A stretch of DNA of 64,000 nt from Herbaspirillum sp. 3R11 (lineage in GTDB: Bacteria > Pseudomonadota > Gammaproteobacteria > Burkholderiales > Burkholderiaceae_D): the NCBI RefSeq assembly GCF_004563925.1, contig NZ_SPNJ01000001.1, positions 1 through 64,000 on the forward strand, given 5' to 3'. The position numbers were made by a program, and so were the translations under genes. The notes below the pieces were generated by a model, which worked only from the letters and a program-made list of their open reading frames with translations, had not been told where the DNA came from and searched no databases. The first letter of the stretch is position 1, and each line of letters opens with the position of its first letter. Below, piece by piece: positions 7,543-17,906 of this stretch.

Positions 7543-7712
7543 CTCGGCTTAGTATTCTCTGTCAGGGACCTTGTCCCGACTCCCAAGCGTTCGCATCGCC
7601 ATGGCGCGAGGCCACGATGCCACGCCGCCACGATGCGGTAACCCAATATAATGTCTATGCATGCCGCCGCGCCTCGCTGCGCGGCCAACGAAAAAATCAG
7701 GGGCTTCAGCAC

Positions 7713-9734
7713 ATGCACATGACGTCAGTCAGAAACGATATCGGCGAAAGCTCTTCGCTCGAACACTACGTCGCCACCCAGGCCAATTTTGCCAGCATCA
7801 TCAGCGCCGCCATGAGCCTGGCGATGATCATCGCGCTATTCGGCGTGGTGGTGCTCATCAGTTGCTACGCCGACGACGGCTACCGCAAGATCCTGGCCGA
7901 CCTGATCGCCGTCCAGGGCAGCTCGGCAGCCGGCTTCATCCTCTCGGGCGCGGCCCTCTACCTGCAATGTCTGAATGTCGGCAAGACAAGCCGCAAGCTG
8001 GCGTTGGCGGCCCGCGTGCTCGCCGTGCTGCTGTTGCTTCTGAGCGCCGGCTTCCTGCTGCAGAATCTGTTCGGCGTGAAGTTGCTGCATGCCGCCTTGC
8101 CGGTGCTTTCCATGGCGGGAAGCGCATTCGGAGCCGAGATCCATCCGCTGGCGGCAGGCTGCTTCCTGCTCACTGCGCTGATCCTGTTGCTGCAAGACTT
8201 GCGCATTCGCGGCGGCCACTATCCCGCTGAATATCTGGCATTCATCCTGATCGGCCTGAGCGCGATTCCGCTGGTCGGTTATCTGTACGGCATCAGCAAA
8301 CTGACCTTCCTGCGTTATTCCACCGGCATCCCCTTGCTGACGGCACTGGGCTTCCTGTTGCTGGGTGCTGCCTTGCTGATGGCGCGGCCGTCGCACCGGC
8401 TGATGTCCATCATCATCGGCCATGCGCCGGGGGGCAACATGCTGCGGCGCTTGTTGCCGTCCATGCTTTTCCTGATCCTGCTGCTCAATCTGCTGGTGGC
8501 GAAGGGCGCAGAGCGCGGCTTCTATTCCGATCAGCTGATGCTGCCGTTCCTGACCCTGATTGACGGCGCGCTGGTAGTGTTCGTGTTCTGGCGTTTCGCC
8601 GGCAGACTTGATCGTGAATACGGCGCGCGCATGCAGAGTGCGGCCAAGCTGGCCGAGGCCAATTCCCTGCTGACCGCGGTCAGCGACAGCACCCGTGAAC
8701 CGATCTTCGTGAAGAATCGCCAGGGCTTGCTGGTGTTTGCCAATCCCGCGCTGTTGCAGCAGGTCGGCAAGACCTGGGAAGAAGCCATGTACCGCTCCAG
8801 CCGCGAACTGTTCGCCGAGCGGGAAGAGGCTGATCGCATCGACGAGGACGACAAGCGCGTCATGGCGCACGGCTTGCCGGAGACCATCGAACAGACGCTG
8901 CATCTGCAGCATGGCATCTTCACCTATCAGTCCACGCGGGTGCCCTGGTTCGACAAGGCCGGCAACGTGCTGGGCGTGATTGGCATCAGCACCGACATAT
9001 CTGAGCGCAAGCGCGCCGAAGATTCACTGCGCGAACGTGAAGCCCAGCTTGAGAAAGCCGTGGTTGAACGCACCGCCTTGCTGCGCGAGCTGACCAACCA
9101 TCTGGAAACCGTGCGTGAAGAAGAGAAACGCGCCATCGCGCGTGAGCTCCACGACAACATGGGCGCGTCGCTCACGGCGCTGAGCATGCATCTGGAAAGC
9201 GTCTACAAGATTTTGCCCGAAGACGAGAAATGGCAGGAGCGCAAGCCGCGCATGCAGGGGCTGATGAGTTCGCTGGTGAGCACCACGCGACGCATCCAGA
9301 CCGAGTTGCGGCCGAACATGCTGGACTTGTTCGGACTCAAGGCGGCCATCACCGAGCAGCTCGACGAATTGGCGGAGCGTACCGGCATCACCTGCAAGGC
9401 CAGCCTGCCTGATGAGGATGTGACGATCGGCCACGAGATGGAAATCGCCATCTATCGCATGCTGCAGGAGATGCTCAATAACGTCACCAAGCATGCCAAG
9501 GCGAATCAGGTGGATGTCATCCTCGACGTCGATGAGGAGCAGGTCTCGCTGACGGTGCGCGACAACGGCGTCGGTATTCCGCAGGAGCGCCAGGACAATA
9601 ACAAGACTTACGGTCTGCGCGGCCTGCGCGAGCGCGCCACATTCTTTGGCGGCAATGTCGCCATACGTTCCACGCCGGGCAACGGTTCCATCATTTCCAT
9701 ACATCTTCCGCTGGCGCCTGTCGCCGACGTCTGA
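7713..9734 (+). CDS. Membrane sensor histidine kinase (PAS, HisKA_3, HATPase)
   Basis: A 673-residue kinase. The N-terminal about 280 residues hold several hydrophobic segments forming a multi-pass membrane sensor of no family I recognise. A PAS domain follows (EPIFVKNRQGLLVFANPALL, then GVIGISTDISERKRAE). The dimerisation domain is HisKA_3 with ELHDNMGASL, the phospho-acceptor His near residue 480. The ATPase carries EMLNNVTKHAKA, DNGVGIPQ and GLRGLRERA boxes. This is the NarX/DegS class that pairs with LuxR-type regulators such as the one at 6349. The start at 7713 (behind CAGGGGCTTCAGC) avoids a non-hydrophobic 32-residue extension; the upstream ATG at 7617 is less likely. Confidence 0.9.
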   Translation: MHMTSVRNDIGESSSLEHYVATQANFASIISAAMSLAMIIALFGVVVLISCYADDGYRKILADLIAVQGSSAAGFILSGAALYLQCLNVGKTSRKLALAARVLAVLLLLLSAGFLLQNLFGVKLLHAALPVLSMAGSAFGAEIHPLAAGCFLLTALILLLQDLRIRGGHYPAEYLAFILIGLSAIPLVGYLYGISKLTFLRYSTGIPLLTALGFLLLGAALLMARPSHRLMSIIIGHAPGGNMLRRLLPSMLFLILLLNLLVAKGAERGFYSDQLMLPFLTLIDGALVVFVFWRFAGRLDREYGARMQSAAKLAEANSLLTAVSDSTREPIFVKNRQGLLVFANPALLQQVGKTWEEAMYRSSRELFAEREEADRIDEDDKRVMAHGLPETIEQTLHLQHGIFTYQSTRVPWFDKAGNVLGVIGISTDISERKRAEDSLREREAQLEKAVVERTALLRELTNHLETVREEEKRAIARELHDNMGASLTALSMHLESVYKILPEDEKWQERKPRMQGLMSSLVSTTRRIQTELRPNMLDLFGLKAAITEQLDELAERTGITCKASLPDEDVTIGHEMEIAIYRMLQEMLNNVTKHAKANQVDVILDVDEEQVSLTVRDNGVGIPQERQDNNKTYGLRGLRERATFFGGNVAIRSTPGNGSIISIHLPLAPVADV

Positions 9735-13075: not shown

Positions 13076-13702
13076 ATGCGCAATCTACGCATTGTCGTCG
13101 TCAACACCATCATCGACCATGCCGATGATGAGACCGACACCGACCTGCAGGAGCAGGCCGAGCGTGGCAAAGCCTTGCGCATCGGCTTGCTGGAGGCCGG
13201 CTACAACATCATCGCCTCGCTGCCGGCCGACCTGTACCTGCCCGAGCGCATCGCCCAGCTTCAGCCCGACATGATCATCATCGACGCCGAGTCCGATGCG
13301 CGCGACGTGCTCGAGCACATCGTCATCGCCACGCGCGACGAGCGCCGCCCTATCGTCATGTTCACCGAAGACGACAACACCAGCACCATGGAAGCCGCCA
13401 TGGAAGCCGGCGTCACCGCCTATATCGTGGCAGGGCTGCAAGCCGAACGGATCAAGCCGGTGCTCGACGTGGCGCTGGCGCGCTTCCGCCAGGAGCAGAA
13501 GCTGCTGACCGAATTGTCCGACACCAAGCACAAGCTGGCCGAACGCAAGGTGATCGAGCGCGCCAAGGGCCTGCTGATGTCCCGTCACAAGCTGTCGGAG
13601 GACGAGGCCTATCAAAAGCTGCGCAGCATGGCCATGAACAAGAACCTCAAGCTTTCGGAAATCGCCCAGCGCCTGCTGGACGTCGAAGACTTGCTCGGCT
13701 GA
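13076..13702 (+). CDS. nasT: ANTAR-domain response regulator (NasT/NasR-type antiterminator)
   Basis: A 208-residue RNA-binding regulator. A receiver-like domain (DMIIIDAESD carrying the acceptor Asp) is followed by a coiled helix and an ANTAR domain. The ANTAR domain runs from ELSDTKHKLAERKVIERAKG through MSRHKLSEDEAYQKLRSMAM to LSEIAQRLLDVEDLL. ANTAR proteins bind paired hexaloop hairpins in nascent leader RNA and prevent termination. The nrtA leader downstream carries such a hexaloop and a terminator. NasT normally needs the nitrate sensor NasS, and no NasS gene is visible here. ATG at 13049 would add nine residues; I prefer 13076 on homologue-like length. Confidence 0.88.
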   Translation: MRNLRIVVVNTIIDHADDETDTDLQEQAERGKALRIGLLEAGYNIIASLPADLYLPERIAQLQPDMIIIDAESDARDVLEHIVIATRDERRPIVMFTEDDNTSTMEAAMEAGVTAYIVAGLQAERIKPVLDVALARFRQEQKLLTELSDTKHKLAERKVIERAKGLLMSRHKLSEDEAYQKLRSMAMNKNLKLSEIAQRLLDVEDLLG

Positions 13703-13870: not shown

Positions 13871-13886
13871 TGGCACGCTCTTTGCT
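13871..13886 (+). promoter_or_regulatory. Sigma-54 promoter for the nitrate transport operon
   Basis: TGGCACG, four bases, TTGCT is a full match to the -24/-12 consensus TGGCACG-N4-TTGCW. Transcription should start near 13898, giving a leader of about 135 bases before the nrtA ATG. With the NtrC-like site it indicates control by nitrogen limitation. Confidence 0.85.
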
Positions 13887-13897
13887 GAATCGTCTGC

Positions 13898-14010
13898 ATT
13901 AGCGCAAGGTTTGCGCAATGAACGATCCGGCCAATGGCGGTCGGATCCATCCAAGACAAAGGCGTCTTTCGACATGACTCAGTGCATGCCGGAGGGACGC
14001 CTTTTTTTTT
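13898..14010 (+). promoter_or_regulatory. ANTAR-responsive leader RNA with terminator
   Basis: The leader contains a nine-pair hairpin (13924-13947: GATCCGGCC, hexaloop AATGGC, GGTCGGATC) whose loop has A at position 1 and G at position 4, the ANTAR-target rule. A weaker upstream hairpin (GCGCAA with TTGCGC, 13902-13916) may be the first motif. An intrinsic terminator follows at 13958-14010 (AAAGGCGTC with GACGCCTTT, then a long T-run). The layout predicts that the ANTAR protein encoded just upstream lets transcription pass into nrtA when nitrate is present. Confidence 0.8.
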
Positions 14011-14034
14011 GCCGCCGAACAAATGGGGAATGCG

Positions 14035-15312
14035 ATGGAATTCAAAGAGCAAGCGAGCAAGGCCGTGGAAGCTGTGAACGAAGTGGATTTCAAGCGTCGT
14101 CAATTGATTCAGACTGCAGGACTTGCAACGGGAGCGAGCATGTTGGGACTAGCCACGGGAGGAGCCTGGGCGGCCGGCTCCGACAAGCCGGAGAAGGAAG
14201 AAGTGAAGATCGGTTTCATTCCGCTGACCGATTGCGCTTCCGTCGTGATGGCCTCGGTGCTCGGCTTCGACAAGAAATACGGCATCAAGATCGTGCTCAG
14301 CAAGGAAGCCTCCTGGGCCGGCGTGCGCGACAAGCTGACCAACGGTGAGCTGGATGCGGCGCACGTGCTCTACGGCCTCATCTACGGCGTGCAGATGGGT
14401 ATCGGCGGCCAGAAGAAAGACATGGCCGTGCTCATGAGCCTGAACAACAACGGCCAGGCCATCACGCTGTCGAAGAAGATCGCCGACAAGGGCGGCGTCG
14501 ATGGGGCGTCGCTGGCCAAGCTGATGCAAACCGACAAGCGCGAATACACTTTCGCGCAAACCTTCCCGACCGGCACCCACGCGATGTGGCTGTACTACTG
14601 GCTGGCCGCCAACGGCATCAATCCGATGAAGGACGCCAAGGTGATCACCGTGCCGCCGCCGCAGATGGTGGCCAACATGCGGGTCGGCAACATGGATGGT
14701 TTCTGCGTTGGCGAGCCCTGGGGCCACCGAGCGATCGTCGATGGCGTGGGCATCACCGCCACCACCACGCAGGACATCTGGAAAGACCATCCGGAAAAAG
14801 TCCTCGGCACCACGCTCGACTTCGCCAAGAAATATCCGAACACCTGTCGCGCCATGATGGCGGCGATCCTCGAGGCCGGCAAATGGATCGACGCCTCGCT
14901 GGCCAACAAGAACAAGATGGCTGAAGTGATCGCCGACAAGTCCTACGTCAACACCAGCAAGGACGTCATCGATCAACGCATCATGGGGCGCTACCAGAAC
15001 GGCCTTGGCAAGACCTGGGACGACCCGAACTACATGAAGTTCTACAACGACGGCGCGGTCAACTTCCCGTACCTGTCGGACGGCATGTGGTTCATGACGC
15101 AGCATCGTCGCTGGGGCCTGCTCAAGGATGATCCGGACTACCTGGCCGTGGCCAAGTCGGTCAACCAGATCGACTTGTACAAGGACGCCGCGACCATGAC
15201 CAAGACCAGTATTCCGAAGGACGTGATGCGCACCTCGAAGCTGATGGACGGCACCGTATGGGACGGCAAGAATCCGAAAGCCTACGCCGCTTCGTTCAAG
15301 GTCAAGGCCTGA
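14035..15312 (+). CDS. nrtA: Nitrate/nitrite-binding protein of the ABC importer (NrtA-like)
   Basis: A 425-residue solute-binding protein of the NrtA/CmpA/SsuA class. The N-terminus has a twin-arginine-like signal (FKRRQLIQTAGLATGASMLG), suggesting Tat export. The mature part begins with VKIGFIPLTDCASVVMASVLGFDKKYGI, typical of the NrtA/CmpA family. GEPWGHRAIVDG and FPTGTHAMWLYYWLAANG are further family blocks. It captures nitrate (or nitrite) in the periplasm and delivers it to NrtB. The ATG at 14035 is preceded by GGGGAATGCG and was preferred over ATG 14023, which lacks a ribosome site. Expression is predicted from the sigma-54 promoter and attenuated leader upstream. Confidence 0.92.
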   Translation: MEFKEQASKAVEAVNEVDFKRRQLIQTAGLATGASMLGLATGGAWAAGSDKPEKEEVKIGFIPLTDCASVVMASVLGFDKKYGIKIVLSKEASWAGVRDKLTNGELDAAHVLYGLIYGVQMGIGGQKKDMAVLMSLNNNGQAITLSKKIADKGGVDGASLAKLMQTDKREYTFAQTFPTGTHAMWLYYWLAANGINPMKDAKVITVPPPQMVANMRVGNMDGFCVGEPWGHRAIVDGVGITATTTQDIWKDHPEKVLGTTLDFAKKYPNTCRAMMAAILEAGKWIDASLANKNKMAEVIADKSYVNTSKDVIDQRIMGRYQNGLGKTWDDPNYMKFYNDGAVNFPYLSDGMWFMTQHRRWGLLKDDPDYLAVAKSVNQIDLYKDAATMTKTSIPKDVMRTSKLMDGTVWDGKNPKAYAASFKVKA

Positions 15313-15402: not shown

Positions 15403-16305
15403 ATGAGCGCAGTCATGGACACGATGATGAACGACAAGCCGACACCAGCTATCGCAGAAGTAGCGGCACCCGCAGCCGTTGCTGTTCCGAAGGTAAAGAA
15501 GACGAAGCCGGTGAGGAGAAACCTGCCGTTTGCAGGTTGGCTGATGAAGATCTTGCCTCCCGTCACCGGCCTCGCTTTCCTGGTGCTGGTGTGGCAGATC
15601 ATCGCCGCCAAGACCGGCAATTTCCCGACGCCGCTGGTGACCTTGCAGGAAGCGATCAAGTTGTTTTCCGATCCGTTCTACCGCACCGGTCCGAACGACC
15701 AGGGCATCGGCTGGAACGTGCTGGCCTCGCTGCAGCGCGTGGCGATCGGCTTCGGCCTGGCCGCGCTGGTGGGCATTCCGCTGGGTTTCCTGATCGGCCG
15801 CGTGCGCTTCCTGTCGGGCATGTTCGGTCCCATCATCAGCTTGCTGAAACCAGTGTCGCCGCTGGCCTGGTTGCCGATCGGCCTGCTCGTGTTCAAGTCG
15901 GCCAATCCGGCCGCGATCTGGTCGATCTTCATCTGCTCGATCTGGCCGATGATCATCAACACCGCCGTCGGCGTACAGCGCGTGCCGCAGGATTACATGA
16001 ACGTGGCGCGCGTGTTGAATCTGTCGGAATGGAAGATCCTCACCAAGATCCTGTTCCCATCGGTGCTGCCGTACATGCTGACCGGCGTGCGTCTGGCCAT
16101 CGGCACTGCCTGGCTGGTGATCGTGGCGGCGGAAATGCTGACCGGCGGCGTCGGCATCGGCTTCTGGGTCTGGGATGAATGGAACAACCTGAACGTGCCG
16201 CACATCATCATCGCGATCGTGGTGATCGGCGTGGTGGGCCTGATCCTTGAACAATTGCTGGTGGCGCTGGCCAAGGCCTTCACCTATGAAGAAGTCAGCA
16301 GCTGA
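15403..16305 (+). CDS. nrtB: Nitrate ABC transporter permease
   Basis: A 300-residue inner-membrane permease. A cytosolic N-terminus of about 40 residues is followed by about six transmembrane segments. The binding-protein-dependent permease loop (EAA-type) reads MNVARVLNLSEWKILTKILFPSVLPYMLTGVRLAIG. It forms the channel of the nitrate importer. The start follows GTGAGGGAATCAAT. It lies 90 bases after nrtA and 62 before the ATPase gene, forming one operon. The strong match to the NrtB/CmpB pattern (GIGWNVLASLQRVAIGFGLA) makes nitrate more likely than taurine or sulfonate, as do the regulatory features. Confidence 0.9.
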   Translation: MSAVMDTMMNDKPTPAIAEVAAPAAVAVPKVKKTKPVRRNLPFAGWLMKILPPVTGLAFLVLVWQIIAAKTGNFPTPLVTLQEAIKLFSDPFYRTGPNDQGIGWNVLASLQRVAIGFGLAALVGIPLGFLIGRVRFLSGMFGPIISLLKPVSPLAWLPIGLLVFKSANPAAIWSIFICSIWPMIINTAVGVQRVPQDYMNVARVLNLSEWKILTKILFPSVLPYMLTGVRLAIGTAWLVIVAAEMLTGGVGIGFWVWDEWNNLNVPHIIIAIVVIGVVGLILEQLLVALAKAFTYEEVSS

Positions 16306-16367: not shown

Positions 16368-17177
16368 ATGGACATGCACAACAAGTTTATCGACATCAAT
16401 GACGTCGAGATGGTGTTCCACACCAAGAAGGGCAGCTTCCACGCGCTGCGCGACATCAACCTGACCGTGCAGAAGGGCGAGTTCATTACGCTGATCGGCC
16501 ACTCCGGCTGCGGCAAGTCGACGCTGCTGAACCTGATCGCCGGCCTGCTCAAGCCGAGCGACGGTTTGCTCCTGTGCGCCAACCGCGAAATCGCCGGACC
16601 ATCGCCGGAGCGTTCGGTGGTGTTCCAGAACCACTCGCTGCTGCCGTGGCTGACCTGCTACGAGAATATTTTCCTGGGCGTCGAGCGCGTCTTCGGCGCC
16701 ACTGAAAATCGCACCCAGCTGCGCGACCGCACACGCGCCGCACTGGCGCTGGTGGGATTGACGGCGGCCGAGAGCAAGCGTCCCAACGAAATCTCCGGCG
16801 GCATGAAGCAGCGCGTCGGCATCGCCCGCGCGCTGGCGATGGAACCCAAGGTTCTGCTGATGGATGAACCGTTCGGCGCACTCGATGCGCTGACCCGCGC
16901 GCATCTGCAGGACGAGTTGCTGAAGATCGTCGCCAAGACCGAGTCGACCGTGGTCATGGTCACGCACGATGTCGACGAAGCGGTGCTGCTGTCGGACCGC
17001 ATCGTCATGATGACCAACGGCCCGGCCGCCACCATCGGCGAAATCCTCGAGGTCAAGCTGGCGCGTCCGCGCGAACGCGTGGCGCTGGCGCAGGATGCGC
17101 AGTATTCCGAATACCGTACGACGGTGCTGGAATTCCTGTATCGCAAGCAGGCGCATCCGGCCAAAGAAGCTGCATAA
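16368..17177 (+). CDS. nrtD: Nitrate ABC transporter ATPase (NrtC/D-like)
   Basis: A 269-residue ATPase: Walker [11 protein letters not shown]-loop [18 protein letters not shown], signature [19 protein letters not shown], Walker [15 protein letters not shown] and H-loop [26 protein letters not shown] is characteristic of the NrtC/NrtD/CmpC branch. There is no fused C-terminal binding domain, so it resembles NrtD rather than cyanobacterial NrtC. It likely acts as a homodimer powering NrtB. The next gene starts 34 bases downstream and is probably co-transcribed. Confidence 0.9.
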
Positions 17178-17210: not shown

Positions 17211-17906
17211 ATGATGGCGTCCGCACAAATCAGGCTGGTTCAGAACAACGAGACCGGAGAGGATGACAGCGGCATCAAGCCGTTGTCAGGTGAAGTGTTC
17301 GGCGCATTGATCAATCTGTCGGGGCGCAGGCGTTTCACTTCCCAGCGTCTGGTGTTGTATGCGGTGCTGGCGTCGCAGGGCCACGACGGTGCGGTGAAGA
17401 CCGCGCGCGAGGCACTGGCCTTGTTCCGTGGCGCCCACACGGCGCTGGTGAAGGGTTCCGATACCGTACCCGGGATTTTTTGCGAAGAAGTGCGCGAAGC
17501 CTATTTCGGCAAGCTCGACGGCGATGCGCAGATCGTCTACTTCATGAACCTGGCCGAGCGCACGCTCAACGCCATCGAGGATCGACTGCGCGATGCGCCG
17601 GCGCTGCTGGAGGAACTGGTGCGCATCACCACGCCGCTGCTGAGCGTGCTGAACCAGATCACCACCGTCTACGAAGAGCAATCCAAGCGCCATGCGGTGC
17701 TGATGAAGAAGCAGTTGCGCGGCATCATGACCGACATCGAAACCATCGCCAAGCAGGCCAAGATGGTGTCCTTCAATGCGCGCATCGTGGCCGCGCGTGC
17801 GGGTCAGGCGGGCAAGGAATTCTCCGTCGTTGCGGGTGTGCTGTCGAACATCACCACCGAGATCGACGACCTCGTCAGGGCGGCGCTGAGCGGCGCGGCG
17901 GCTTGA
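17211..17906 (+). CDS. Soluble PilJ/NarX-like motif protein with truncated chemoreceptor tip
   Basis: A 231-residue protein without signal peptide or membrane helix. Residues 34-46 (INLSGRRRFTSQR) match the P-box pattern of PilJ/NarX-type nitrate-sensing domains (N-x-A-G-R-Q-R-M-x-S-Q-R). The C-terminus (about 176-214) resembles the hairpin tip of methyl-accepting chemotaxis proteins (IAKQAKMVSFNARIVAARAGQAGKEFSVVA). Only this short part of the signalling domain is present. The gene is 34 bases after the nitrate ATPase gene with its own SD (AAAGGAATGCC). I infer a cytoplasmic nitrate sensor for this locus. The family and mechanism are unproven. Confidence 0.7.
   Translation: MMASAQIRLVQNNETGEDDSGIKPLSGEVFGALINLSGRRRFTSQRLVLYAVLASQGHDGAVKTAREALALFRGAHTALVKGSDTVPGIFCEEVREAYFGKLDGDAQIVYFMNLAERTLNAIEDRLRDAPALLEELVRITTPLLSVLNQITTVYEEQSKRHAVLMKKQLRGIMTDIETIAKQAKMVSFNARIVAARAGQAGKEFSVVAGVLSNITTEIDDLVRAALSGAAA

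Follow-up and report, generated by a model that had tools for sequence, protein, structure and literature searches.

A soluble PilJ-type protein with a chemoreceptor-tip-like tail in the nitrate uptake operon of Herbaspirillum

The stretch of DNA analysed here, referred to as the window, comprises the first 64,000 nucleotides of contig NZ_SPNJ01000001.1 of Herbaspirillum sp. 3R11 (genome of 5.22 Mb in 10 contigs), and carries the nitrate transporter genes nrtA, nrtB and nrtC. Directly downstream of nrtC lies a gene for a small soluble protein, here called the stub, which combines a PilJ-type sensor fold with a tail resembling the signalling tip of methyl-accepting chemotaxis proteins (MCPs). 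This combination within a nitrate operon had been proposed from the letters of the DNA alone (the original prediction), and it is now borne out by Pfam matches, a structure model and the neighbouring genes. No published description of the protein was found in a literature search based on search-result entries rather than full texts. The stub and its two distinctive stretches are the following:

17211..17906, + strand: stub, a soluble PilJ + MCP-like protein of 231 amino acids (open reading frame, Pfam, structure model)
17310..17348, + strand: N-box/P-box-like stretch INLSGRRRFTSQR, stub residues 34-46 (translation, alignment, published motifs)
17676..17849, + strand: MCP-signalling-like stretch, a chemoreceptor tip variant, stub residues 156-213 (Pfam MCPsignal, tip comparison)

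The stub protein

The open reading frame starts with the ATG at 17211 and its stop codon ends at 17906. As originally predicted, the 231 residues contain no membrane-like segment in a Kyte-Doolittle scan (highest 19-residue mean 1.18), and translation places INLSGRRRFTSQR at residues 34-46. The position just 3' of the nitrate ATPase gene also holds, with a spacing of 33 bases between the end of nrtC (17177) and the stub start instead of the 34 first counted. A profile search, which had been suggested as a check, placed both expected families above their cut-offs. PilJ (PF13675) scored 28.0 bits against a cut-off of 26.6 over residues 32-86 (58 of 114 profile positions), while MCPsignal reached 39.2 bits against 34.6 (E 8.5e-10) over residues 156-213, which confirms the MCP-tip-like stretch and makes it somewhat longer than the residues 176-214 first assigned to it.

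The structure model of the stub alone is all-helical, with a PilJ/McpN-like four-helix bundle at about residues 25-161, and helix 4 extends into the MCP-like stretch as part of one unbroken helix (residues 129-230). The absence of a PilJ-like fold had been named as grounds for abandoning the original prediction, and such a fold is seen in the model. Foldseek alone returned no match of the model in the PDB at E <= 0.001. Sixteen residues are invariant across 57 aligned stub relatives, including N35, R39, R41, S44, Q45, R46, N189, A194, R196, G201 and F204, and the domains are therefore more than chance matches. A loss of the MCP hairpin in the stub was also considered and dropped, since 29 genuine MCP tips cut to an equal extent were likewise modelled as one helix (2-117), which makes the stub model uninformative about the hairpin.

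The tail does not amount to a complete MCP signalling domain with methylation helices, as the match covers profile positions 31-79 of 172 only. In a comparison with 28 MCP tips, selected with a pattern in which several positions are fixed but none of the three discussed here, the conserved tip glutamate (E385 in Tsr numbering) is present in 28/28 MCPs and in 0/57 stubs. Furthermore, the T375 position is alanine and the G395 position is glutamate in 56 of the 57 stubs each. These alignments mark the tail as a conserved MCP tip variant in its own right, not a random remnant.

The box at residues 34-46 can be compared with characterised nitrate sensors. According to the McpN study, this chemoreceptor binds nitrate via R61 at the dimer interface, the R61A exchange abolishes binding, and its N-box reads [IVL]-[ND]-x-A-G-x-Q-R-M-L-[ST]-Q (PMC6381276). 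A second source describes G-x-x-R as common to NarX/NarQ-type nitrate sensors (PMC8199190). In the window stub R41 aligns at the position of McpN R61, and G38-x-x-R41 preserves the G-x-x-R of nitrate-binding domains. The arginine is found in 57/57 stubs and the glycine in 47/57. The exact N-box pattern occurs in 10/57 stubs; the window stub carries the variant INLSGRRRFTSQ, shared by 24/57, which differs from the pattern at 4 of its ten specified positions. Nitrate binding by the stub is plausible.

The stub differs from each of the known systems to which it can be likened. Unlike McpN and other proteins with a PilJ-type domain it has neither membrane helices nor a HAMP domain, in addition to the four altered N-box positions, and unlike NarX/NarQ, whose sensor domain carries the P-box, it has no kinase and no membrane anchor. 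It resembles NasR, a NIT-ANTAR protein, in being a soluble helical sensor linked to nitrate assimilation, but it lacks an ANTAR domain and gives no Pfam match to NIT (PF08376) up to E 1. With NasS it shares the standing of a cytosolic partner candidate in a nitrate operon; NasS, however, is an NMT1-type binding protein, and the stub is unrelated to it, being all-helical in the model and without an NMT1 match in Pfam. MCPs, the soluble ones included, share the tip-like sequence, but the stub retains 49 of the 172 profile positions and has its tip residues replaced.

Operon, leader and family distribution

The remaining features of the nitrate region are listed in their order on the DNA:

13076..13702, + strand: nasT-type ANTAR gene, upstream of the leader and the promoter-like site (ANTAR E 8.8e-22)
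13871..13886, + strand: sigma54-type -24/-12 site TGGCACGCTCTTTGCT (pattern match)
13924..13947, + strand: ANTAR target hairpin 1, hexaloop AATGGC (leader analysis, published motif)
13953..13968, + strand: ANTAR target hairpin 2, hexaloop AAAGGC, overlapping the terminator (leader analysis)
13960..14010, + strand: intrinsic terminator and T run of the nrtA leader (leader analysis)
14023..15312, + strand: nrtA, nitrate-binding protein with a twin-arginine-like signal by eye (PF13379, NMT1_2, E 2.7e-103)
15403..16305, + strand: nrtB, nitrate ATP-binding cassette (ABC) transporter permease (TIGR01183 E 2.6e-76)
16368..17177, + strand: nrtC, nitrate ABC transporter ATPase (TIGR01184 E 1e-99)

The sigma54-type site, sought with the -24/-12 consensus, is the sole match to the pattern used on both strands of the window. 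The ANTAR signature consists of hexaloops with A1 and G4, and of a second hairpin that is mutually exclusive with the terminator (PMC3369931); both window hairpins and the terminator overlap fit it. Among the 30 loci, 20 leaders (13 with NasT and 7 without) were aligned, and in the ANTAR hairpins 97.9% of 239 cells pair. There are 11 two-sided cells, a value reached in 0/500 shuffles, and 4 pairs are changed on both sides, a count reached in 30/500 shuffles. In the terminator stem 89.9% of 138 cells pair, and no covariation was found there. The stub is probably co-transcribed with nrtABC and a product of the ANTAR switch, because its gene follows nrtC after a short gap and stands behind both the sigma54-type site and the ANTAR leader. 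At a distance of about 2.6-4.5 kb on the 5' side of nrtA, 25/30 nrt loci of the genus have a histidine kinase with PAS and HisKA_3 domains (7617-9734 in the window), which could be a partner of the stub.

The stub has a family of like proteins among Burkholderiales and related bacteria. A scan of contigs for stub relatives confirmed at least 179, of which the best 80 were kept. These 80 loci come by title from betaproteobacterial genera such as Herbaspirillum, Massilia, Duganella, Methylotenera, Pelomonas, Paraburkholderia, Cupriavidus and Acidovorax, and the nearest named stub among them, 98% identical, belongs to Herbaspirillum lusitanum P6-12. Of the 80 stubs, 46 have nitrate-assimilation genes no more than 10 kb away (45 by script and L221 by hand), six have only a double-PilJ protein nearby, and in 28 none of the searched nitrate-related genes was found within 10 kb. 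An ANTAR gene is within reach in 21/80. A tree of 57 stubs shows the nitrate linkage repeatedly, in distinct clades whose neighbouring genes differ; a single Oxalobacteraceae clade holds all cases of NasT within 10 kb.

Among 349 genomes of the order, the stub was found in 5, nasA in 137 and an ANTAR gene in 165, and all 5 stub genomes have both nasA and ANTAR. The stub is associated with nasA (p 0.009) and with ANTAR (p 0.023), the latter association vanishing within the nasA genomes (p 1; 5/5 vs 113/132). In G116, G340 and G171 the distance between the stub and the nearest ANTAR gene is about 5, 15 and 20 kb, respectively, and the two therefore share nitrate regions more often than one operon. 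A search of 399 genomes of the order found the stub also in G377, which is outside the 349-genome sample, and a class-level scan, with at most 8 candidates scored per genome, found it at E <= 1e-18 in 1/369 genomes, the window's own.

Several further arrangements were observed. Stubs 46-69% identical to that of the window adjoin unrelated genes in Massilia, Noviherbaspirillum, Methylotenera and Pelomonas/Roseateles (L165, L166, L168, L171, L172-L188). In Cupriavidus/Ralstonia the stub is followed by a PilJ protein that appears by eye to bear a signal and has two Pfam stretches (among these loci L050, 12560-13453), and homologues of this protein lie inside nirB-nasA regions of Comamonadaceae; the loci concerned are L050, L191, L198, L199, L203, L204 and L218, as well as L208, L214 and L217. 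In addition, L003 (G000 C3:579586-579756) holds by eye a membrane diguanylate cyclase-like protein with a weak PilJ match of 19.6 bits, below the cut-off.

Proposed role and alternatives

With moderate confidence we favour the view that the stub is a cytosolic nitrate sensor of the PilJ/McpN type, which is induced together with nitrate uptake and exerts accessory or feedback control by protein contact. The four-helix bundle would form a dimer, with nitrate (or nitrite) bound between the two R41 residues in the manner of McpN R61, and helix 4 would lead into the tail derived from an MCP signalling tip, which would serve as the output surface. Because it is encoded behind the sigma54-type promoter and the ANTAR-controlled terminator, the stub would be made once nitrate uptake is already on; it would not be the input of the ANTAR switch, and might instead feed back on nitrate uptake or assimilation, although the direction of this control is conjectural. 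The predicted fold, the conserved box, the gene order, the leader and the nitrate linkage with its exceptions are computational observations, while nitrate binding, the dimer, co-transcription and the direction of control are inferred. More tentatively, the stub may represent a stand-alone class, a chemoreceptor shrunk to a sensing bundle and a re-purposed tip helix that tunes nitrate uptake by cytosolic contact, with no kinase, RNA-binding domain or array. If true, plant-associated genera would gauge cytosolic nitrate by a soluble chemoreceptor derivative besides the antitermination switch, and the MCP tip would have gained a second, non-chemotactic use.

Alternatively, the stub could be a cytosolic chemoreceptor adaptor that reports intracellular nitrate through its tip to CheA/CheW or Pil-Chp arrays. 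The MCPsignal match and the invariance of the tip residues N189, A194, R196, G201 and F204 in 57/57 stubs would agree with this. A CheA-type domain was found in 30/30 stub genomes searched (one at only E 5.7e-5), a count that covers stub genomes only, so that none of the 30 lacks CheA, a case that was sought as evidence against a chemotaxis link. However, the partial coverage of the MCPsignal profile and the replacements at all three tip positions compared above make such an adaptor unlikely.

A different objection concerns the ligand, as the stub may be no nitrate sensor but a PilJ-MCP protein that has drifted, has some other ligand or serves a general purpose, and is often carried in nitrate operons. 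Its fold is also common to sensors of other ligands, the variant box is widespread among the stubs, and 28 of the best 80 loci have none of the searched nitrate genes nearby; the box arginine is nevertheless invariant, and nitrate linkage recurs in separate clades, which leaves this explanation with a rather low probability.

NasT, NasS and NIT-ANTAR proteins in Herbaspirillum

The original prediction went on to suggest that the stub could serve the ANTAR protein encoded at 13076 as its nitrate sensor, in which case it would hold or free NasT in place of NasS. Its premise, the lack of a nasS gene, agrees with a genome-wide search, in which no NasS was recognised in the window genome: there are three NrtA-like matches, two of them with signal-type N-termini by eye, and the third (24% identity, 33 bits) fell short of E 1e-20 against the NasS query. 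The same genome has one ANTAR gene above the cut-off. Across the genus, the NasS query at E <= 1e-20 retrieved one true NasS, that of G427, together with nrtA genes at 43-46% identity and weaker matches at 31-35%, of which one was inspected, the window genome's copy, which is of signal type and beside a permease. The 29 nrtA N-termini in the genus look signal-bearing.

Among the Herbaspirillum genomes, 29 nrtABC operons are readable (a further one with NasT, in G428, runs into the end of its contig, and none was seen in G403, G419, G420 and G427). NasT and the stub occur together in 14, the stub only in 10, NasT only in 4 (G430, G413, G416 and G400) and neither in 1 (G405), a distribution that does not fit an obligate partner of NasT. 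The NrtABC tree of the genus requires only about two changes each of NasT and the stub, so independent events are few, too few for an independent-pair test. In the four genomes with NasT and no stub, the NasS query has one match each, which is nrtA. Full-length NIT-ANTAR proteins are encoded in 10/10 stub-only genomes, the NIT domain being shown by Pfam in the G178 copy (E 2.2e-47). In seven loci of other Oxalobacteraceae (L152, L155, L156, L157, L161, L162 and L163) the order is NasT, an NrtA/NasS-like gene, the stub and cobA, with no nrtBC between; of the five N-termini printed for the NrtA/NasS-like proteins, those of L155, L156 and L161 have no hydrophobic signal, and those of L152 and L163 no twin-arginine motif by eye.

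A role as the sensor of NasT is therefore the least probable explanation: the missing NasS, which leaves NasT otherwise without a sensor, the 14 operons in which NasT and the stub flank nrtABC, and the ANTAR genes in all 5 stub genomes of the order, about 5 to 20 kb away in three of them, speak for it, but all four operon combinations, the NIT-ANTAR proteins of the stub-only genomes, the coexistence with NasS-like genes, the vanishing association within nasA genomes and the position of the stub downstream of the ANTAR leader led us to reject it as the main reading. The co-occurrence check that had been proposed for this pair thus shows no obligate pairing in the genus and, in the order, no association within the nasA genomes. 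A modulating contact between the stub and NasT may exist in some species. The comparison also opens to experiment the question of what controls NasT in Herbaspirillum, in which nearly all genomes examined are without NasS.

The stub was found in 24 and an ANTAR gene in 33 of 34 Herbaspirillum genomes, with none in G420 (63% complete). The ANTAR genes comprise 20 of the NasT type, 12 NIT-ANTAR and one other (G403), and among the genomes with NasT a true NasS was found in G427 only; NasT without a recognisable NasS is found in the window (13076-13702) and in the loci L111-L115 and L131-L143. NasT and NIT-ANTAR (L043, L120-L128, L144 and L261) were never seen in one genome of the genus, and both groups retain the nrtA leader and its ANTAR hairpins. 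The two proteins seem to have substituted for one another on a shared leader RNA. Beside the NIT-ANTAR gene of G178 stand open reading frames that resemble urea amidolyase by eye.
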